From Pseudomonadota bacterium (lineage in GTDB: Bacteria; Pseudomonadota; Alphaproteobacteria; Acetobacterales; Acetobacteraceae): 40,526 nt of DNA. Shown piece after piece: positions 7,896 through 16,890 of this stretch. The notes beneath the pieces are model-generated. The model saw only the letters and a list, made by a program, of their open reading frames with translations, was not told the origin of the DNA and ran no database searches. The DNA lies in assembly GCA_021808545.1 (NCBI GenBank), contig JAKBBM010000017.1, positions 1 through 40,526 on the forward strand, in the 5' to 3' direction. How positions within the stretch are numbered: position 1 is the stretch's first letter; each line of letters starts with the position of its first letter. A program made the translations under genes and the position numbers.

Positions 7896-8702
7896 ATGGG
7901 CAAGATCGTCTGGCTCGCCTCCTACCCGAAATCCGGCAATACCTGGGTGCGCAGCTTCCTGCATAATTACATCTTGCGGCCCGAAACCCCGCACAGCATC
8001 AACGCGCTGCTCGAATTCTCGGTGGCGGAAAACGCGGCCGCCTTCTTTGGCGCAGACGGTAAGGTGCTGGACCCCGCCCAGGTGCAGCGTCTGCGCCCCG
8101 GCGTGCATGCGCAGCTCACCCAGCTGCATCCCGACCTCGTATTCGTGAAAACGCATAATGCCAATCGCGCGGTCGAGGGGATCGCGCTTTGCACGCCAGA
8201 GCACACGGCGGGCGCCGTTTATATTGTGCGCGACCCGCGCGATGTGGCGCTGTCTTACGCCGCCTATACCGGGCGGCCGGTAGATGAGATTATCGATTTC
8301 ATGGCCCATGACCAGGCTGCCACCGCCAGCGATGAGCGCCAGGTGTTCGAACTGCTCTCCTCCTGGTCGGGGCATGTGCGCTCCTGGGTGGCATCCCCCA
8401 AACGGCTGCTCATGCGCTATGAGGATCTACTGGTCGAACCGGAACGTTATTTCGCCCGGCTGGTGCGATTCCTGGGCACGGGCACGGTGGATGAAGCCCG
8501 GCTTGCCCGCGCGGTCGCATTCAGCAGCTTTGCCACCCTGGCGGCGCAGGAAGCGCGAGACGGCTTTGAATCCGGCGGCCGCCACGGCCCATTTTTCCGA
8601 ACAGGCCAAGCCGGACAATGGAAAACGCGCCTGACCCCCGCCCAGGCCGCGCGCATCGCCGATGCCCATGGCGAGATCATGGGCAAGCTTGGCTATTTAT
8701 AA
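7896..8702 (+). CDS. Sulfotransferase domain protein
   Basis: This 268-aa cytosolic PAPS-dependent sulfotransferase has the N-terminal 5'-phosphosulfate loop YPKSGNTW (residues 10-17) and the 3'-phosphate motif YIVRDPRDVALSYA (about 109-122). These are the two signatures of the Sulfotransfer_1 family, and the length is normal. It would move a sulfate group from PAPS to an alcohol or amine acceptor. The acceptor cannot be told from sequence, and there are no PAPS-synthesis genes in the window. It starts 12 bp after the dsbD-type gene and probably shares its transcript. Its stop overlaps the converging hyfI-like gene by 6 nt. Confidence 0.88.
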   Translation: MGKIVWLASYPKSGNTWVRSFLHNYILRPETPHSINALLEFSVAENAAAFFGADGKVLDPAQVQRLRPGVHAQLTQLHPDLVFVKTHNANRAVEGIALCTPEHTAGAVYIVRDPRDVALSYAAYTGRPVDEIIDFMAHDQAATASDERQVFELLSSWSGHVRSWVASPKRLLMRYEDLLVEPERYFARLVRFLGTGTVDEARLARAVAFSSFATLAAQEARDGFESGGRHGPFFRTGQAGQWKTRLTPAQAARIADAHGEIMGKLGYL

Positions 8703-9209
8703 TCTGGTATCGTGCGCCTCGACCAAGGCGAGCAACCCCTGCACAATTTGCGCGGGGCTTGGCGGGCAACCGGCGATGATGAGATCCACCGGCAAAATCG
8801 CCTCCGCCCCGCCCGCCACGGCGGCGGCCCCCTTGAACACACCGCCATCCACCGCGCAATCGCCCACCGCCACCACCAGCGCGGGCTCTGGCATGGCGGC
8901 ACGGGCCTCGCGCACGGCCGCCACCATGTTGCGCCCGGCGACACCGGTGATCAGCAATATATCCGCATGGCGCGGGCTGGGGGTGAAGCTCAACCCATAT
9001 TGGGTGAGGTCGTAAACAAGGTTTTGTGTTGCCCGTAATTCCAGCTCGCAGCCATTGCAGCTTCCCGCCGGCACATGGCGGATGGCCAGCGACCGCCCCA
9101 ATTTTGAAGCCCCAACACGCTGGCGCAAGGCCCGGGCCAGCGCCGCATCCGCCTGAACAGGTGCGGGCGGGCGGGTGACGACATGGCGTAAAACGGTTTT
9201 CCAGACCAT
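8697..9209 (-). CDS. Ehr complex small subunit (HyfI/NuoB-like, [4Fe-4S])
   Basis: This 170-aa protein is of the NuoB/HycG/HyfI family, the hydrophilic subunit that holds one [4Fe-4S] cluster (N2 in complex I). The four ligand positions are present: SCNGCELE (C51, C54), GDCAVDGG (C118) and GCPPSP (C148). The CxxC spacing is that of membrane-bound hydrogenases, not the CC pair of NuoB. It is the last gene of a six-gene operon and starts 2 nt after the large-subunit stop. Because the large subunit lacks Ni-Fe ligands, hydrogenase activity is not expected. The cluster is the only redox centre visible in this operon. Confidence 0.9.
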   Translation of the reverse strand: MVWKTVLRHVVTRPPAPVQADAALARALRQRVGASKLGRSLAIRHVPAGSCNGCELELRATQNLVYDLTQYGLSFTPSPRHADILLITGVAGRNMVAAVREARAAMPEPALVVAVGDCAVDGGVFKGAAAVAGGAEAILPVDLIIAGCPPSPAQIVQGLLALVEAHDTRL

Positions 9210-9211
9210 GG

Positions 9212-10582
9212 CTACAGATCCACCCCTGAATAGGAGCCGTTGATGGATTTATTGATCAACGGAAAATCGGCTAGAATGGCGGTCGTGGCGGCATGCTCCA
9301 GCAGCGGCCAGTGCAGCGTGCTGGGATCGGCGATGAACACATCCGCGATCATCCCGCTCTCAATCCGCAGCCAGTGCCAAACCGCGCCCCTGAAGCTCTC
9401 GGCCACGCCAAGCCCCATGCCGCTTTCCCCTGGCGGGGCAACGGCCAGCGCGCCCTCGGGCAACAGGCGCAGCAGCTCACGGATCAGGCGGATGCTCTCC
9501 GGAATTTCGGCGAGGCGGACGCGGATCCGCGCCGCGACATCGCCGTCCCGCTCCAGCGGCACGTCGAGCCCCAGATCGGGATAGGGCCCATAGCCGGGGC
9601 TAAGCCTCGCATCGCCCTCCTGGCCCGAGGCGCGGCCCACATAGCCGCCCGCGGCAAAGCGTTCCGCCAGGGATACGGGCACGATGCCGGTGCCGATTAC
9701 CCGGTCCTGCAGGCTGGCATAATCCTCGAACACGCGCTTCAGGCTTGGCAATTCCGCCTCCAGCGCCGCCAGGGCGGCAAGAATCGCAGCCCCCCCCTCC
9801 CCGGCCAGATCGCCCGCAATGCCGCCGGGGATGACCATATCCATCATCAACCTATGGCCAAAGGCGGTGTGCGCGGCCACGCATAGGCACTCGCGCTGCC
9901 AGGCAAAACGTGCATCCAGAAAGGCAAAACCCGCATCCCCGGCCATGGCGCCTATATCGGAGGCGTGGTTGGCCAGGCGCTCCAGCTCGGCCATGATGGC
10001 GCGCAGATGAACGGCGCGCGGCGGCACCTCCACCCCCAGCGCGGCCTCGGCGGCATGGGCGAAGGCCAGGGAATGAGCCACCGTGGCATCGCCCGAGATG
10101 CGGGCCGCGAACCGGGCCGCCAGACGCGGCGATTTACCCCGGATCAGCCCCAACGTGCCCTTATGCGCATAGCCCAGCCGGGCTTCGAGCTTTAACACCT
10201 GCTCGCCCAGCACGGAAAAGCGGAAATGGCCGGGCTCGATAATCCCGGCATGGACCGGCCCCACCGCGACCTGATGCACACCCTCGCCCGGTGCTGCAGT
10301 CAAATCCGGCCAGGGGGCGGTGCCATCCTCGGCGCGGAAATGCTGGATGGCGGGCCGCGTATCCGCCGCCCCCTCGGCCGTATGGGTGTTCAGATCATGC
10401 GCTAAACGTTGAAACCAGCCCGCCCCTGCATGGGGCAATGCCGGATAGGCGCCATTTTCCAGCGCCACCGCCACCAGCTCACCAGGCTGGTAAAGCGCGT
10501 AGGCATGGCTGGAATCGGTCCATAGCGCGATGAATTTGCCCGGATGCGCCCGCCAATCCTGGGGAGAGAGCTGCTTCATCAT
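9212..10582 (-). CDS. Ehr complex large subunit (HyfG/HycE-like) without Ni-Fe ligands
   Basis: This 456-aa protein has a short NuoC-like N-terminal part (about 1-90) and a NuoD/HycE-like part starting at GVHQVAVGPVHAGIIEPGHF (about 101-120). In Ni-Fe hydrogenases the metal is held by RxCxxC and DPCxxC. Here the first site reads RISGDATVAH (161-170) and the second DPSTLH (419-424), so all four cysteines are absent. This matches energy-converting hydrogenase-related (Ehr) proteins and not HycE or HyfG. The ATG at 10582 overlaps the upstream stop as ATGA and has GGGAGG 5 nt before it; a second ATG follows at once. An in-frame extension to 10771 lies inside the upstream gene and is not supported. 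Calling it hydrogenase 4 would be misleading. Confidence 0.9.
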   Translation of the reverse strand: MMKQLSPQDWRAHPGKFIALWTDSSHAYALYQPGELVAVALENGAYPALPHAGAGWFQRLAHDLNTHTAEGAADTRPAIQHFRAEDGTAPWPDLTAAPGEGVHQVAVGPVHAGIIEPGHFRFSVLGEQVLKLEARLGYAHKGTLGLIRGKSPRLAARFAARISGDATVAHSLAFAHAAEAALGVEVPPRAVHLRAIMAELERLANHASDIGAMAGDAGFAFLDARFAWQRECLCVAAHTAFGHRLMMDMVIPGGIAGDLAGEGGAAILAALAALEAELPSLKRVFEDYASLQDRVIGTGIVPVSLAERFAAGGYVGRASGQEGDARLSPGYGPYPDLGLDVPLERDGDVAARIRVRLAEIPESIRLIRELLRLLPEGALAVAPPGESGMGLGVAESFRGAVWHWLRIESGMIADVFIADPSTLHWPLLEHAATTAILADFPLINKSINGSYSGVDL

Positions 10583-12030
10583 TGCAGCCTCCCGGTCAGC
10601 CCCAGCAGCATATGGGCCACCACAGGCGGCATGAAAAAGGCGATGGCCACCATAATGGCCAGATGCAGCGCGACCAGATGCGTGACCATGGGTGTCGCAC
10701 CCGGTTTGGTCCGCGGTGGGGCGGGGCCAAACAGCAGCGGCCCGAACTGGCGCAAAATGGCAATGGCGCACAGCATCAGCCCCAGCCCCAGCGGCAACGA
10801 GGCCCAGGGGGCGCGCTGGATTGTCTGGCTGACGATGATGAACTCGCTTACGAACAGACCCGAGGGCGGCAAGCCGGTGAGCGCGAACATGCAGCCGCCC
10901 AGGCCCCAGGCCACGTATTTATTGGCATGGAAAAGCCCGCGCAGATGCGAAAAACCATAATGGCCGGGCGCGGTGGAGCCGCGCAGCTCGGCGGCGCGGA
11001 TCAGCCCCTGGAACAGAGCCGATTTGATCAGCGTTTGCAGCACCATATGCAGCAGCCCGCCAAAAATTGCCCAAGCGCCGCCAACACCAAAAGCCACCGC
11101 GGTGATGCCGGATTGCTCGATAGAGGAAAAGCCGAAAAAGCGCCGCGCATCGCGCCGCCGGGTCAGCGAAAAGGCGGTGAGCAGGATGGAGGCGAGCCCC
11201 AGCGTGAGCAAAAACGGCCCTGGCGCCATGGCCCCGCCGCCGGCGGTAAAATTGGCCTGCAGCAAATGGCGGAAACGCAATATGGCGATAAGGGCGACAT
11301 TCAGGATCAACCCCGACAACATGGTGGTCAGCGGGACCGGCCCTTCGGCATAGGCATCTGGCAGCCAGCCATGCAGCGGCACGAGTGCCGCCTTGGTGCC
11401 GTACCCGAACAAAATGAAGACAAAGGCGAGGGTGAGCAGCGTGCCATCCATATGTGCGGCATGGGCCGAGAGGGCGCTGAAGCTCATGGCGCCAAAGCCC
11501 GGCCCCAAAGCCGGCTGCGCGGCTAAATACACCAGCATGGTGCCAAACAGCGCCAAGCCAATGCCAACCCCGCCCAGGATGAAATATTTCCACCCCGCCT
11601 CCAGCGCCGATGGTGTGCGCGGCAGGCTGACGCCAAGTGTGGCGGCAATCGTCGCGCCTTCAAGTGCGGCCCAAAGCAGGCCGATATTGTCCGCATACAG
11701 CCCCAGCAGCACCGACCCCAGCACCACCTGGCACATGGCATGATAAACCCGCCAGCGCCGCACACTCAAACGCGGTGCAGCCCCGCGCACATAGGCAATA
11801 TTGGCAAGGGCGGTGGTGAGCCCCACAAACCCTGTGAGCGCGCCGAAGATCAGACCCAGCCGGTCGGCCCGCACAAGTCCCGCCCCCGGCGCCCAGAAGA
11901 CCAGCAAAGTGAGCCCGAACACCAGCGCGGTGAGCCCGGCATTGGCGATCGCCCCCTGGCGTGGCGAACCCAACAGCCCCAGCGGCAGGGCGGCCAGCAG
12001 CGGCAGCAATATGGGCAGCAGAATGATCAT
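10579..12030 (-). CDS. HyfF-like proton-antiporter membrane subunit
   Basis: This 483-aa protein has about 14 membrane helices and belongs to the NuoL/M/N and Mrp antiporter family (proton_antipo_M). The hallmark HGWLPDAYAEGPVPLTTMLSG region is at about residues 225-245, within the lysine/histidine-lined proton path. It sits between hyfE- and hyfG-like genes with ATGA overlaps on both sides, the order of the E. coli hyf operon. Its role would be proton or sodium movement across the inner membrane as part of the Ehr complex. HyfF is the closest label from gene order; HyfD-like is possible. Confidence 0.85.
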   Translation of the reverse strand: MIILLPILLPLLAALPLGLLGSPRQGAIANAGLTALVFGLTLLVFWAPGAGLVRADRLGLIFGALTGFVGLTTALANIAYVRGAAPRLSVRRWRVYHAMCQVVLGSVLLGLYADNIGLLWAALEGATIAATLGVSLPRTPSALEAGWKYFILGGVGIGLALFGTMLVYLAAQPALGPGFGAMSFSALSAHAAHMDGTLLTLAFVFILFGYGTKAALVPLHGWLPDAYAEGPVPLTTMLSGLILNVALIAILRFRHLLQANFTAGGGAMAPGPFLLTLGLASILLTAFSLTRRRDARRFFGFSSIEQSGITAVAFGVGGAWAIFGGLLHMVLQTLIKSALFQGLIRAAELRGSTAPGHYGFSHLRGLFHANKYVAWGLGGCMFALTGLPPSGLFVSEFIIVSQTIQRAPWASLPLGLGLMLCAIAILRQFGPLLFGPAPPRTKPGATPMVTHLVALHLAIMVAIAFFMPPVVAHMLLGLTGRLQ

Positions 12031-12686
12031 CGGCCGCGCCTTTCGATTTCCTCGATCCCGGTGAGATCGAGCGTGTCGAAATGCTCGCGGATGCGAAACA
12101 GGAACACGCCCACGACCAGGAACGCCAGCAGCACCAGCAGCGCCACCGAAAATTCCGCCACAAACGGCATGCCCGGCATGCCAATGGCGGCCAGCACCAG
12201 CCCGTTCTCGGTGCAGAGAAACCCGATAATCTGCGCCAGCGCGCTGCGCCGCACGATCATCACCAGCAGCCCGAGCAGCACGACCGAGAGGGACATGGCC
12301 AGATCCTCCCGCGTGAGCGAGATGGCCCCCGGCGCAATCGGCAGCACCACCAGCACGGCGATGCCGATCAGGGCGAGGCCCAGAATCATCGAGAGGATCA
12401 GCGGCATCGCCGTTTCCACCGCGCGGATCATGTTAAAGCGCAGCACGATCTGGCGCAGGGCAAAGGGCAGCGCCAGCCCCTTAATGCCCAGCGTGATAAG
12501 GCCGGTGAGATAGAGCGAGACCTCGCCCTGCGCATAACCCTGCCAGAAGGCGGCGGCCGAGAGCAGCAGCGCCTGCATCTGGTAGAGCGTAATCATCGCC
12601 GCCAAGCGCCGCTGCGAGAGCATGGAGAAGGCGCACAGCAGGATGATGCCACCCATGAGATGCGCAAGGGAGAAGGTGAGATTCAT
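12027..12686 (-). CDS. HyfE-like membrane subunit
   Basis: This 219-aa very hydrophobic protein has about seven predicted membrane segments and matches HyfE in size (about 216 aa in E. coli); its N-terminal half is NuoK-like. The ATG at 12686 forms an ATGA overlap with the hyfC-like stop, so translation is probably coupled. The longer open frame to 12845 lies within the upstream gene and encodes a cysteine- and arginine-rich stretch unlike a membrane protein. The gene has no redox motifs. Identity rests on operon position plus hydrophobic profile. Confidence 0.82.
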   Translation of the reverse strand: MNLTFSLAHLMGGIILLCAFSMLSQRRLAAMITLYQMQALLLSAAAFWQGYAQGEVSLYLTGLITLGIKGLALPFALRQIVLRFNMIRAVETAMPLILSMILGLALIGIAVLVVLPIAPGAISLTREDLAMSLSVVLLGLLVMIVRRSALAQIIGFLCTENGLVLAAIGMPGMPFVAEFSVALLVLLAFLVVGVFLFRIREHFDTLDLTGIEEIERRGR

Positions 12687-13645
12687 CCGCCGATCCGCGC
12701 CGCGACAAACAGAAACACGCTGGCCAGCATGCCCAAAAGCATGGCCACGCCCAAAAATTCCGGCACCCGGAAGACGCGCATCTTGGCACTCGAAATCTCG
12801 AACACGGCAAGACAGACGGCCATGAGCGCAAGCTTGGCCAGCCACAGCGCCAGCCCCAACGGCCAGGTTAACAGATCATCCGCCCGGGCCATGCCAAAAG
12901 GCAGGAACACTGCGCCAATCAGGTTCATCCAGACCAAGAGCCGCAGCATCGCGGCGTAATCGAACATCAGCAGATAGCGGCCGGAATATTCCAGAATCAT
13001 CGCCTCATGCACCATGGCAAGCTCAAGATGGCCGGACGGGTTGTCGGCGGGGATGCGGCCGGTTTCGGTCAGCGCCACGGCAAGCAGAGCGGCCAAGGCA
13101 AAGCCAAGCGAGACGGAAATGCCGATTTGCCCCGTGGAAAAAGCCACGGAAATGCCGTTTACCGTGGCGCTATGGGCGAGCAGGACAAAGCTGAGCAGGA
13201 CCACGAGCAAGGCCGCCTCGGCGAACACGCCAAACAGCATCTCGCGCTGCGCCCCGGCCCCGCCAAAGCCAAACCCGGTCTCCAGCCCGGCCAGCACCAA
13301 AGCCGCGCGCGCCAGCCCCAACAGACCGATAAGGGTAATGAAATCCCCCGCCGGCGCGGTGAGCATGCCGGTGCAAAACCCAGGCACCAGCAAAGCCGCC
13401 ACACCAAGGGCGAGCAGGCAGACAACCGGCCAGATTCCAAACAGGGGGGTGGCGGTTTCGGGCACCAGGGTGGTTTTGCGCAAGAGCCGGTATAAATGCC
13501 GGTAGGACTGCAAAAATGGTGGCCCCCGGCGGCCCAGGATACGGGCGCGGAATGTGGTAACCACGCCCATCAAGAACGGGGCCGCGGCAAAGGTAAGAGC
13601 CGCATGCAGCAAGGTGGCGAGCAGGGCGAGGAAAAACCCGAGCAT
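12683..13645 (-). CDS. HyfC/HycD-like (NuoH-type) membrane subunit
   Basis: This 320-aa NuoH-family membrane subunit has about eight helices. Family marks are PPFLQSYRHLYRLLRK near residue 42 and the charged loop NPSGHLELAMVHEAMILEYS at about 204-223, which in complex I and hydrogenases joins the membrane arm to the hydrophilic module. In this family the subunit links redox chemistry at the small and large subunits to ion movement. Its ATG at 13645 directly abuts the hyfB-like stop at 13646. The conserved acidic loop is intact, so the coupling element appears functional even though the Ni-Fe site is gone. Confidence 0.88.
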   Translation of the reverse strand: MLGFFLALLATLLHAALTFAAAPFLMGVVTTFRARILGRRGPPFLQSYRHLYRLLRKTTLVPETATPLFGIWPVVCLLALGVAALLVPGFCTGMLTAPAGDFITLIGLLGLARAALVLAGLETGFGFGGAGAQREMLFGVFAEAALLVVLLSFVLLAHSATVNGISVAFSTGQIGISVSLGFALAALLAVALTETGRIPADNPSGHLELAMVHEAMILEYSGRYLLMFDYAAMLRLLVWMNLIGAVFLPFGMARADDLLTWPLGLALWLAKLALMAVCLAVFEISSAKMRVFRVPEFLGVAMLLGMLASVFLFVAARIGG

Positions 13646-15310
13646 CTATCCGCCCTCCCCCAACCCCAGCACGAGCAGCGCCAGAACCAGCCCCATGAAG
13701 ACAAAAGCCAGACGTTCGCGAATAGTGGCGCGGCGGATACGCTCGGCCAGCCGGACGATGCGCAAATATAGCCGCTGCAAGGGCGCCAAAACCCAGGCTT
13801 GTCCTGGATCCATCCCGCCGGGGGCTAACAGCCCGGCGCCAATGGCGCGCGCCACCGGCGCGGCGAAACCGCTGGCGGAGGGCTGGGTCATCGGGTCGCC
13901 AAAAGGCAGCCAGGCGGGCGGGCGGCCAAACCCGCCCATCCAGGCCGGCACCTCACGCGTGCCGCGCACGCCAAACCGGTGCAACACAAACCCCGCCGCC
14001 AGCGCAACCAGCCCGCCCAGCAGCACTAAAATGAGCGGCGCATAGGCCAGCGGCGCTGGGCTGGCCCCTGGCACCAGCAGGCGGATAACCGGGTTCATGC
14101 CCCACAGCACCAGCCCCGGCCACAGCGCGACCGGCACGCATAAGCCAGCCAGCAACGCCATGCCAGCCAGCGGGCCGGGGCGCGCATCCTCGGCCGCGGC
14201 GGCCTGCAAGGTGCGCGGCCGGCCCAAAAATCCAATCCCCACCAGCCGCACCGCAGCCCCCAGGGCCAAGGCCGCGCTCACCCCCAGCACGGCCAGCAGC
14301 GCGGTAAAGGCCAAATGCGCAAGGATGCCCCCGGTGGCCGCCGCCGCGATGACCGCATGCAAAAGCAAAAACTCCGGCGCGAATCCTGGCCCCAGCGGCA
14401 GCGCCGCCATGCCCACCGCCCCCAGCAGCATCAATCCCGAAAGCCTTGGCATGCCGCGCAGCAGCCCACCCAGCCAGTTAAGCCCGCTGGTGCCGGTGGC
14501 GTGCTTAACCTCGCCCGCGCCGATGAACAAAAGCGGCTTGAACAGCGCATGCGCCACCACGCACAGCAAGGCCGCCTGCAGACCAAGGGCCGCCAAAGCC
14601 GGATCGCCCATCGCCTTGGCGCGCAACGCAACACCCAGCCCCACCGCGATCAGCCCCGCATGCTCGACCGTGGAGCAGGCGAGCAGCGTTTTCAGCTCGG
14701 TCTCCAGCATAGCGCGCAACGAACCGATCAGCACCGAGGCCGCCCCCGCCACAATCAGCACCATGCCCCACCAGGGGGCGGCCTTGGCACCGAGTACGAT
14801 GAAGCCGTAGCGGATCAGCACATAGAGCGCGACCTTGATCATCCCGCCCGACATCAGCGCCGACACCCCGGCCGGCGGGGCCGGATGGGCGCGCGGCAGC
14901 CAGGAATGCAGCGGCGCCAGCCCCGCCTTGGCGCCCGTACCCAGCAGAATAAGCATGAAAGCCAAAGCGCCAGCGGGCAGGAACAGCGCAGGGATCAAGC
15001 AGGCGGCGGAAAAAACAGCAATACCCGCATACAGGCTGGCGGGCTTGGCATCGCCGCGCAGCACCAGGAGCCACGAGGCGGCACTCATCAGCTCGAAGCC
15101 AAAAATGAGCGTGAACGCATCCGCCCCCAGCAATGCCACCACCATGCCGGCCACGAACACCCAAAAAGTGAGCGAACCGCGCATGCCGGATAAGGCCGCG
15201 GCGATGGTCTGCGGCAGCAGGATGATGAGAAACAAGGCCGACAGGGCATCGAGGCGCAGATGCATCCCCTGCCCCGGCAACCCGACCATCAGCGGTAAAA
15301 TGTCATTCAC
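13646..15310 (-). CDS. HyfB/HycC-like proton-antiporter membrane subunit
   Basis: This 554-aa multi-helix protein of the proton_antipo_M family is the first gene of the Ehr-like operon. The core signature LAPLHSWLPRAHPAPPAGVS lies at about residues 121-140, with lysines in the surrounding helices. It is shorter than HyfB (about 670 aa) and HycC (about 610 aa), and the C-terminal extension seems reduced. The longest frame starts at GTG 15310; an ATG at 15289 in the same frame is a fair alternative, and neither has a clear ribosome site. With the HyfF-like protein it gives the complex two antiporter-type channels. Confidence 0.85.
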   Translation of the reverse strand: MNDILPLMVGLPGQGMHLRLDALSALFLIILLPQTIAAALSGMRGSLTFWVFVAGMVVALLGADAFTLIFGFELMSAASWLLVLRGDAKPASLYAGIAVFSAACLIPALFLPAGALAFMLILLGTGAKAGLAPLHSWLPRAHPAPPAGVSALMSGGMIKVALYVLIRYGFIVLGAKAAPWWGMVLIVAGAASVLIGSLRAMLETELKTLLACSTVEHAGLIAVGLGVALRAKAMGDPALAALGLQAALLCVVAHALFKPLLFIGAGEVKHATGTSGLNWLGGLLRGMPRLSGLMLLGAVGMAALPLGPGFAPEFLLLHAVIAAAATGGILAHLAFTALLAVLGVSAALALGAAVRLVGIGFLGRPRTLQAAAAEDARPGPLAGMALLAGLCVPVALWPGLVLWGMNPVIRLLVPGASPAPLAYAPLILVLLGGLVALAAGFVLHRFGVRGTREVPAWMGGFGRPPAWLPFGDPMTQPSASGFAAPVARAIGAGLLAPGGMDPGQAWVLAPLQRLYLRIVRLAERIRRATIRERLAFVFMGLVLALLVLGLGEGG

Positions 15311-15332: not shown

Positions 15333-15363
15333 CCCCGCGCCGGAAGCGGCAACCGGCGCGGGG
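15333..15363 (-). terminator. Intrinsic-type hairpin after degP
   Basis: A perfect 11-bp stem (CCCCGCGCCGG with CCGGCGCGGGG) and a 9-nt loop lie between the degP stop and the start of the hyfB-like operon. On the minus strand only a weak T run (ATGGGTTTG) follows, so it is a plausible but imperfect terminator that would separate the two units. Confidence 0.5.
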
Positions 15364-15381: not shown

Positions 15382-16890
15382 TTAGGGTTTGCCGGTATCG
15401 ATGCCGACGAACAAAGCCTGACCCTGGCGGATGATACGCAGCGCCACCGCGCCGGCATTGGCCTTGCGTGCCGCCGCGATGGCGGCCACCGCCTGATCGG
15501 GCGAGGACACATCCACATTGCCGACACCCACGATCAGATCGCCCGGCTCCAGCCCGGCCATATCGGCCGGTGAGTTAGGCTTAACGCTGGCGACCACAGC
15601 GCCACTTACATTATTGGGCACGTTAAGCTGGGCGCGCGATTGCGGGGTGAGCGGCGCCAGCGTCAGGCCCAGCGCGCCATGGCTTTGCGTGGCCTGCGGA
15701 CCGCCATTTTGGAATCCCACATCCGGATTGGCGGGCATGGTGGTCACGGCCACCGACACCGTGGTGGATTTGCCATTGCGCAAATAGGTGATCTTGGCAT
15801 CGTGCTCGGGGTCGATATCGGCGATATCATTGGCAAGGTCGCCCGGGTCGCGCACATTTTTACCGTTGACGCTGGTGATCACGTCTCCTGGCTTGAGCCC
15901 GGCGCGGAAGGCCGGGCTGTCCTTGGCCACGGCGGCGATCAGCGCGCCATCCTTCTCCGGGCGCTCCATCGGCAGGCCCAGCGCCTTGGCCATTTGCGGC
16001 GAGATAACCTGTGCCGCCACCCCAAGATAGCCGCGCACCACCTTGCCATGCGCGATCAACTGATCGACCACGCGGTGGATCATGTCGGAGGGAATGGCAA
16101 AGCCAATCCCCACCGAGCCGCCCGAGGGGGTGAGAATGGCGGTGTTCACGCCGATCACCTGGCCGCTCTGGTTAAAGAGCGGACCGCCGGAATTACCTTC
16201 GTTGATCGGCGCGTCGATCTGGATGAAGCGGTCATACGGACCATCGCCAATATCGCGCCCCAGGGCGGAGACGATCCCCGCCGTCACCGTGTTCTCAAGC
16301 CCGAACGGGTTGCCCATGGCCACCACCCATTCGCCCGGCACAACCTTGGCGGAATCACCCAGCTCGACATAGGGCAGCGGATGGCCGACCGAAATCTTCA
16401 GCACCGCGAGATCGGTCTTGGGATCGGTGCCAATGATCTTGGCGGGATAGGTGTCGCCGTCGGAGAGGGTAACAGTGACCGTCTTCGCATCCTTCACCAC
16501 ATGGTTGTTGGTGACGATGATGCCTGAGGAATTGAGAATAAAGCCCGAGCCCTTGGCCTCAACCACTTGCGGCTGGGCGGGCGCGCCAAAGCTGAACGGA
16601 AAACCGGGCGGAAAGCCGGGCAATTGCGGAAAGCCCGGCGGCGCGCCGGATGAACCGTTATCGCTCTGATCGTCAGCGGTCTTGTCGAGCTTGAGATGGA
16701 CCGTGACCGAGACAACCGCCTTGGACACGCGCTTGACGAGACTGGTGAAGTCTGGAACCGGCTTCACGTCGCGCTGCACGGCGGCGGTCATGTCCATGGA
16801 GGTGTCCGCCGCGTGGGCGGGCGCAATCAGGGCGGTGCCGCACAGCAACGCCAGCGCCAGCGTGGCGCCACGGGTAAGGGTCTGTTGCAT
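15382..16890 (-). CDS. degP: Do/DegP-family periplasmic serine protease
   Basis: This 502-aa HtrA-family protease and chaperone is exported to the periplasm for protein quality control. A signal peptide covers residues 1-27 (cut after APAHA). The trypsin-like domain has the triad H130 (TNNHVV), D160 (KTDLAVL) and S234 (GNSGGPL). Two PDZ domains follow (about 280-370 and 405-500). The length and the two PDZ domains fit DegP/DegQ; which paralogue it is cannot be decided. The gene is alone, with a 184-bp gap before it that holds GTAAC (16971-16975) and GTTAC (17022-17026), possibly regulatory but unproven. A GC hairpin follows it at 15333-15363. Confidence 0.92.
   Translation of the reverse strand: MQQTLTRGATLALALLCGTALIAPAHAADTSMDMTAAVQRDVKPVPDFTSLVKRVSKAVVSVTVHLKLDKTADDQSDNGSSGAPPGFPQLPGFPPGFPFSFGAPAQPQVVEAKGSGFILNSSGIIVTNNHVVKDAKTVTVTLSDGDTYPAKIIGTDPKTDLAVLKISVGHPLPYVELGDSAKVVPGEWVVAMGNPFGLENTVTAGIVSALGRDIGDGPYDRFIQIDAPINEGNSGGPLFNQSGQVIGVNTAILTPSGGSVGIGFAIPSDMIHRVVDQLIAHGKVVRGYLGVAAQVISPQMAKALGLPMERPEKDGALIAAVAKDSPAFRAGLKPGDVITSVNGKNVRDPGDLANDIADIDPEHDAKITYLRNGKSTTVSVAVTTMPANPDVGFQNGGPQATQSHGALGLTLAPLTPQSRAQLNVPNNVSGAVVASVKPNSPADMAGLEPGDLIVGVGNVDVSSPDQAVAAIAAARKANAGAVALRIIRQGQALFVGIDTGKP

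Follow-up and report, generated by a model that had tools for sequence, protein, structure and literature searches.

The window analysed here, a stretch of 40,526 nucleotides (assembly GCA_021808545.1, contig JAKBBM010000017.1), is contig 1 of a 129-contig, 2.4 Mb genome (93% complete), whose host belongs to the acid-loving genus Acidocella. It carries a six-gene operon that, judged by its sequence, encodes a Hyq-like variant of the Ehr kind of complex and not plain Hyq, the system known from genetic work on nitrogen fixers and published as an ‘endo-hydrogenase’ (PMC2650096, PMC2930871, PMC3357923); we file it in this way because three cysteines of the large subunit HyqG that have been called completely conserved are absent. 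In our best reading, the complex is not a Ni-Fe hydrogenase and is not tied to nitrogen fixation. We give about an even chance to the more specific proposal that it is an ion-translocating oxidoreductase, namely a single-cluster, proton-coupled ion pump with its substrate in the emptied Ni-Fe pocket. We arrive at this proposal because each of three alternatives conflicts with a tested feature, namely a Ni-Fe hydrogenase, a quinone site as in complex I and an open cluster of the type found in MBS, the archaeal sulfane reductase.

That HyqG lacks the Ni-Fe ligands has been in print since 2012 (PMC3357923). New here are an Acidocella clade that, in the aligned sequences, is devoid of the three HyqG cysteines mentioned above, the absence of HypD from 62 and of NifH from 72 of the 97 Hyq-bearing genomes examined, and the retention of four hydrogenase-spaced cysteines in the small subunit even where its gene is unlinked and located behind a presumably trpS-like gene. 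Also new is the combination of kept proton-relay and antiporter residues with the loss of both quinone ligands and the canopy Asp. A paper on Hyq in Acidocella was not found in the open literature searched.

The replaced Ni-Fe site of the large subunit

The operon runs from position 15310 to 8697 on the minus strand, as do all of its features listed below, and its genes overlap or abut in the order B-C-E-F-G-I. An earlier note, made from the sequence alone, had described six genes in a HyfB-C-E-F-G-I-like order, and family matches and gene coordinates agree with this description. The large subunit HyqG (456 amino acids [aa], 9212..10582) matches PF00346 (E = 8.5e-28) and, in a phmmer search against solved structures, MbhL (2.8e-35), HycE (3e-35) and Nqo4 (6e-28). 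In a 138-row alignment that includes HycE, HyfG and NuoCD of E. coli, all four Ni-Fe cysteines of HycE are replaced (Cys241 by Ser163, Cys244 by Ala166, Cys531 by Ser450 and Cys534 by Gly453). The first two positions lie in RISGDA (residues 161–166, 10085..10102), the equivalent of RVCGIC, as the earlier note had recognized. The same note had placed the second ligand site at DPSTLH (residues 419–424, 9311..9328). This placement was wrong: the HycE motif DPCYSC (529–534) falls on N448-G-S-Y-S-G453 at the extreme C-terminus, and phmmer, a 48-row profile and the 138-row alignment agree on this position. The true equivalent of DPCYSCTDR is NGSYSGVDL (residues 448–456, 9215..9241), with its last residue on HycE Arg537, and DPSTLH is not a ligand site, although its D419 and S421 are conserved in the family. 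The claim that every Ni-Fe ligand is lost holds with this correction. Displaced ligand cysteines were not found either, the only cysteines of the window HyqG being Cys232 and Cys234.

The replacement motif is nearly invariant among 129 Hyq rows (three sequences occur twice; the shorter copies of re-fetched loci were left out, and so were L052, L053, L054 and L061). S163 and G164 are each found in 128 and D165, G453 and D455 in all 129 rows. Equally, the counterparts of five HycE residues are kept in 129/129 rows (Glu193 as E116, His284 as H206, Glu437 as E359, Arg395 as R317 and Arg478 as R398). Other positions of the pocket have changed. In the beta1-beta2 loop HAGIIE (residues 111–116, 10235..10252), HycE Glu193 corresponds to Glu116, which adjoins the former ligand site, while both HycE Asp192 and the complex I His fall on Ile115 (Asp192 replaced by Ile in 127/129 rows), and the canopy Asp529 has become Asn448 in 128/129 rows. 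The roles of the loop, canopy and proton-path residues are those described for HycE, whose residues 182–537 form the part homologous to hydrogenase large subunits (PMC9474812).

The predicted structure is consistent with this relationship. An AlphaFold2 model of the window HyqG, based on 48 rows, reached a mean predicted local distance difference test score (pLDDT) of 84.7 and a predicted template modelling score (pTM) of 0.87, with low-confidence segments at residues 81–104, 109–121, 135–140 and 450–456, and its best Foldseek match was HycE (7z0s_E, template modelling score 0.85), followed by E. coli NuoCD. The ratio of nonsynonymous to synonymous substitution rates (dN/dS) of G was 0.07–0.16 in 7/7 pairs, indicating purifying selection; L073/L074 was the sole pair valid for B, C and E, and B values that derived from F paralogues were dropped. 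HycE is cleaved behind Arg537. Nothing follows the equivalent of this residue in 132 of 133 rows, including the window HyqG, and the exception is a real hydrogenase (L052) with 32 further residues, like HycE and HyfG. As L061 has all four ligands and also no tail, a C-terminal tail does not by itself set hydrogenases apart.

E. coli hydrogenases 3 and 4 (HycE, HyfG) provide the best fold match, the best or a near-best sequence match and the same proton-relay residues, but the four ligand cysteines, the canopy Asp, the C-terminal tail and HyfA, HyfD and HyfH are all missing from the window complex. It is extremely improbable that the operon encodes an ordinary group 4 Ni-Fe hydrogenase whose ligands were misread. 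Although HypD and a Ni-Fe hydrogenase-like pair occur in the genome, the ligand columns are clear in three alignments and HypD is absent from most Hyq genomes examined. The earlier note had named a NuoI-like partner and nearby maturation genes as signs of a normal hydrogenase. No such partner is encoded in the operon, but a HypD gene is present on contig 52 (of the maturation genes, hypD alone was searched). This HypD may serve the separate hydrogenase-like pair on contig 41 (L064:4196-6263; closest to sulfhydrogenase models, below their cut-offs), since both are found in the same genome. Its presence is no proof of a normal hydrogenase, because this second pair can account for it and because HypD is missing from 38 of 53 relatives with Hyq.

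As a second alternative, the complex could act as a minimal complex I and reduce or oxidise quinone in the cavity of HyqG and HyqC, a reaction that has been proposed for Hyq (PMC3357923). The complex I core (NuoB-C-D-H-L-M) has homologous subunits with a homologous fold and the relay residues, and the cavity-forming subunits G, I and C are present in the window. However, both ligands of the quinone headgroup, which are H38 and Y87 in Nqo4 (PMC7684303), are gone: the His column holds Ile115 in 127/129 rows and His in none, and the Tyr column Gly164 in 128/129 and Ala in one. Furthermore, the canopy Asp is Asn448, the small subunit has a CxxC motif instead of adjacent cysteines, and neither an NADH nor a ferredoxin module is present. 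We regard quinone chemistry of this type as unlikely.

The iron-sulfur subunit

The small subunit HyqI (170 aa, 8697..9209; PF01058, E = 5.9e-30; nearest solved chain HycG, 7z0s_G) has Cys51-x-x-Cys54, Cys118 and Cys148 for one [4Fe-4S] cluster, in accordance with the earlier note. These cysteines are found in 122, 122, 121 and 120 of 122 rows, respectively, and the remaining rows have gaps. The CxxC spacing is of the HycG/MbhJ type, whereas complex I NuoB (L171–L173) has an adjacent CC; for A. caulinodans HyqI, the conserved cysteines are printed as 55, 58, 112 and 152 (PMC3357923). The dN/dS of I was 0.08–0.16 in 5/7 pairs, which are those having I.

The conserved cysteines bear on the possibility that the HyqI cluster is itself the site of catalysis, as in MBS, a solved relative that has lost Ni-Fe ligands, has antiporter-like subunits and is still redox active (PMC7684303). 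The cysteine motif of MBS is three residues shorter and its cluster has three Cys ligands; MbsL retains two of the four Ni-Fe cysteines, and the complex contains the ferredoxin-linked MbsN (PMC7684303). None of these features occurs in the window complex, where HyqI keeps the hydrogenase spacing and all four cysteines. The only loss of a cluster cysteine was seen, by eye, in a distant relative from genome G038 (L170), and we consider an MBS-like reaction very unlikely. This relative comes from a set of three other genomes of the family, G059, G038 and G045, each with a far diverged HyqG-like gene near membrane-protein frames (L053, L054 and L059, respectively), no small subunit in the fetched stretch and an unlinked second NuoB-like gene (L168–L170), of which that of G038 (L170) would have three cysteines left as in MBS.

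In a nine-row subclade of Acidocella (support 99), the small subunit gene is located outside the operon. As the FastTree tree warned of long-branch joins, we used only this subclade and the well supported Acidocella clade. A loss of the small subunit was considered for the subclade and rejected, as 7/9 genomes have the gene elsewhere (75–78% identity), in one case on the contig of the operon at a distance of ~132 kb. In the other two genomes (G008 and G026, both about 80% complete) it was not found. Five unlinked genes called in whole (L079, L080, L081, L083 and L084) retain all four cysteines and are located immediately downstream of a gene that encodes a W/Y class I tRNA synthetase family member (PF00579 match shown for L079) and that we take to be trpS-like; such a gene also adjoins the match site in L082 and L085. 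Among 80 named Hyq loci, the best 80 among the matches listed in a scan of bacterial genomes, 76 contain the small subunit, and the remaining four are cut off by a contig end no more than about 100 bases from G.

These observations also bear on whether the complex could be a redox-dead relic that is kept as a structural or antiporter module, similar to the deranged bc1 and COX1 genes reported in Acetobacteraceae (PMC10715153). The lack of a widely conserved partner gene would fit a relic, but dN/dS is low, the pocket and relay residues are invariant, and the retention of the four cluster cysteines after the relocation of the small subunit gene argues against a redox-dead module, which we deem quite unlikely. 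The earlier note had left open whether an unknown redox or conformational step is coupled to ion pumping. A purely conformational step is disfavoured, because the cluster cysteines are kept, apart from gaps, in 122 small subunits, five of them unlinked.

Membrane subunits and related complexes

The four membrane subunits show family matches and have kept their charged residues; the earlier note had described their antiporter-type and NuoH-type signatures as kept. HyqB (HyfB-like antiporter subunit, 554 aa, GTG start, 13646..15310) is followed by HyqC (HyfC-like, NuoH-type membrane anchor with conserved Glu/Asp, 320 aa, 12683..13645; PF00146, E = 3.7e-26), HyqE (HyfE-like, 219 aa, 12027..12686; NCBIfam hydrogenase 4 membrane subunit model, 3.3e-14, below cut-off) and HyqF (HyfF-like antiporter subunit, 483 aa, 10579..12030; PF00361, 3.3e-37; hydrogenase 4 subunit F model, 1.8e-123, below cut-off). 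Pfam yielded strong matches for five subunits, with PF00361 matching at 3.3e-37 and 1.8e-34, and no match for subunit E. Conservation of the charged residues was observed in 99 rows of B, 121 of F, 98 of C and 100 of E. The Acidocella HyfB is shorter than in the relatives compared (554 aa versus about 616–672) and lacks several stretches, among them 18–20 residues after position 114.

No HyfA, HyfD or HyfH gene lies between the genes of the operon, which bears out the previously noted lack of HyfH/NuoI-type and HyfA genes. BLAST searches of the fetched loci with E. coli HyfH and HyfA (E ≤1e-6) gave no match in any Hyq locus; the only matches were in L052, L061, L062 and the E. coli loci L076–L078, which are real group 4 or complex I loci.

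The closest known system is Hyq of Azorhizobium caulinodans (hyqRBCEFGI), which has the same six genes in the same order, no HyfA, HyfD or HyfH, a HyqG without both CxxC pairs and a HyqI with four cysteines. HyqG of the window is 43–60% identical to the fetched rhizobial, azospirillar and roseomonad forms. The window differs from A. caulinodans in that no hyqR-type gene and, near the operon start, no NifA/sigma54 pattern were found, the host genome has no nifH above cut-off, and the three extra HyqG cysteines are absent. With Ehr complexes, as defined in PMC6349859, the operon shares a group 4 hydrogenase homologue without Ni-Fe ligands and antiporter-like subunits. The assignment to Ehr in the earlier note therefore stands, including the missing Ni-Fe site, the one visible cluster and the conserved pumping subunits, but the nearest relative Hyq, with its genetics, had been overlooked. 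A formate dehydrogenase has been suggested as Ehr partner (PMC6349859), but was not among the identified recurring neighbours of the 80 loci, in which no search was aimed at it.

Occurrence in other bacteria and nitrogen fixation

At least 580 Hyq-type relatives were confirmed in one scan of bacterial genomes. Most of the best 80 are from Alphaproteobacteria; a few carry Beta- or Gammaproteobacteria labels, and one comes from a metagenome-assembled genome (MAG) of the Terriglobia. In one annotated record, the subunits are named as parts of hydrogenase 4 or NADH-quinone oxidoreductase. HypD and NifH were recorded in 97 Hyq-bearing genomes: 53 relatives picked by hand from the matches among 100 genomes (Acidocella G010 had no such match) and 45 named genomes chosen by hand from the 80 loci, leaning to cultured strains, with A. 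aquatica in both sets and counted once. Absences in MAGs may partly be assembly gaps. Matches of ~200 bits to the nifH model were below the cut-off and counted as absent; presumably, they represent relatives from chlorophyll synthesis.

HypD was present in 15 and absent from 38 of the 53 relatives, and at ≥95% completeness these numbers were 9 and 22 of 31. Together with the named genomes (20/45), HypD occurred in 35 and was missing from 62 of the 97 genomes (Acidocella, 12/37 present). NifH above cut-off was found in 4/53 relatives, 21/45 named genomes and 25/97 overall (Acidocella, 3/37). Both proteins were absent from 57/97 genomes, and five genomes had NifH without HypD. The Acidocella host of the window likewise had no nifH above cut-off. 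In 2010, hyq was said to be generally absent from non-diazotrophs (PMC2930871), a claim that is at odds with the absence of NifH above cut-off from 72/97 Hyq genomes.

The three HyqG cysteines of A. caulinodans called completely conserved are Cys258, 491 and 497 (PMC3357923). Their equivalents in the window, matched by spacing, are Ala214, Ile443 and Gly449. Cysteines occupy these positions in 88, 89 and 84 of the 129 rows, respectively, and all three in 77 rows, whereas all three are absent from every one of the 32 rows of the Acidocella clade (support 100). The trio did not track nifH among the 45 named genomes (all three cysteines in 20 genomes with and 21 without nifH). One Acidocella genome (G003) contains a second hyq operon (L045), whose HyqG is 49% identical to that of the window, falls on the rhizobial side of the tree and contains two of the three extra cysteines. 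Another Acidocella (G004) has a formate hydrogenlyase-like operon (L052) that retains every Ni-Fe ligand and includes HyfH as well as a HyfA-like frame.

Near the operon start, simple exact-pattern scans detected neither a NifA-type nor a sigma54-type pattern; three TGT-N10-ACA matches elsewhere in the window are at chance level. A HyqR-type helix-turn-helix protein of Rhizobium had no clear match in 11 long Acidocella loci, nor in the window, where its best E was 0.33. A candidate hyqR, a small helix-turn-helix-type gene mostly adjoining subunit B, is present in 17 of the 80 named loci and is the widest recurring neighbour, for which reason a widely conserved partner gene was rejected. Besides this helix-turn-helix protein, the identified neighbours that recur in at least four of the 80 loci are parts of transporters, Tex, a short-chain dehydrogenase and a protein resembling methyltransferases. 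Pfam was consulted for six neighbour clusters, and several listed clusters are antisense open frames over the operon.

These data have to be weighed against the proposal, made for Azorhizobium Hyq, that the complex is a genuine hydrogenase working in both directions (H2:quinone oxidoreductase), with a catalytic site other than Ni-Fe that perhaps uses the three extra cysteines. Deletion of hyq in A. caulinodans slowed diazotrophic growth and altered H2 release, which rose about 15-fold at 20 µM O2 and fell microaerobically, and hyq is under the control of NifA in this organism (PMC2650096, PMC3357923). Complete recycling of H2 has been stated for Rhodocista centenaria, which possesses hyq and lacks hup/hyp, with the data not presented in that source (PMC2930871). 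The presence of the complete cysteine trio in 77/129 rows would also agree with such a function. However, the four Ni-Fe ligands are absent, the Acidocella clade has none of the extra cysteines, NifH is found in a minority of the genomes, and the window shows a 71-base gap before B, no NifA/sigma54 pattern near the start and no clear HyqR match. We doubt that the Acidocella complex is a bidirectional hydrogenase.

Proposed reaction

In the ion-pump reading that we favour, the single [4Fe-4S] cluster would pass electrons between a soluble low-potential carrier and a small substrate that occupies the emptied Ni-Fe pocket; the carrier may dock where HycF or NuoI covers the small subunit in the relatives. 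The substrate would take up or give off protons via the kept relay of Arg398, His206, Glu359 and Arg317, and this event would power the movement of ions through C, E, F and B or be powered by it. The substrate would be neither H2 at a Ni-Fe centre nor a quinone held as in complex I. We count in favour of this reading the invariant replacement motif, the relay, the cluster cysteines, the relocated iron-sulfur subunit, the low dN/dS, the scarcity of HypD and the HycE-like fold.

Several points weigh against it. The main weakness is that the large H2 phenotypes of the A. caulinodans deletion mutants are not explained (PMC3357923, Table 2), and an A. caulinodans nifK hupSL double mutant still releases much H2 (PMC3357923). 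For the Acidocella complex, no substrate, partner or activity is known. Carrier docking is without sequence support, and no ferredoxin gene recurs beside the operon. The structural model is unreliable at the pocket loops (pLDDT <50 at residues 109–121 and 450–456), and since NuoCD, too, has the His, Glu and Arg of the relay, these residues do not single out a substrate.

Genomic surroundings of the operon

Directly upstream of the operon, on the same strand, lies an HtrA/DegP-type protease gene (15382–16890), separated from B by 71 bases. A perfect 11-base GC-rich inverted repeat (15333–15363) is located 3' of this gene, and the operon may have a promoter of its own because the repeat follows the upstream gene. 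At the other end, a sulfotransferase gene on the plus strand (7896–8702) overlaps the end of hyqI tail-to-tail by 6 bases.

Implications

Hyq-type complexes are widespread, and very high H2 turnover has been claimed in print for a protein that has no Ni ligands. Variables that bear on this claim are separated in the Acidocella clade, as no nifH above cut-off was found in 34/37 genomes, HypD is present in only 12/37, no residual cysteines occur, and the complex is still conserved. For this reason, the function of nickel-free complexes is directly testable in these organisms. Tentatively, and with somewhat less than even confidence, we suggest that the Acidocella complex is a member of the complex I superfamily that pumps ions in a redox-driven manner and has a substrate site free of metal and cysteine, that its chemistry would involve neither H2 nor quinone and be unrelated to nitrogen fixation, and that the ‘endo-hydrogenase’ role would be at most a derived use in diazotrophs.

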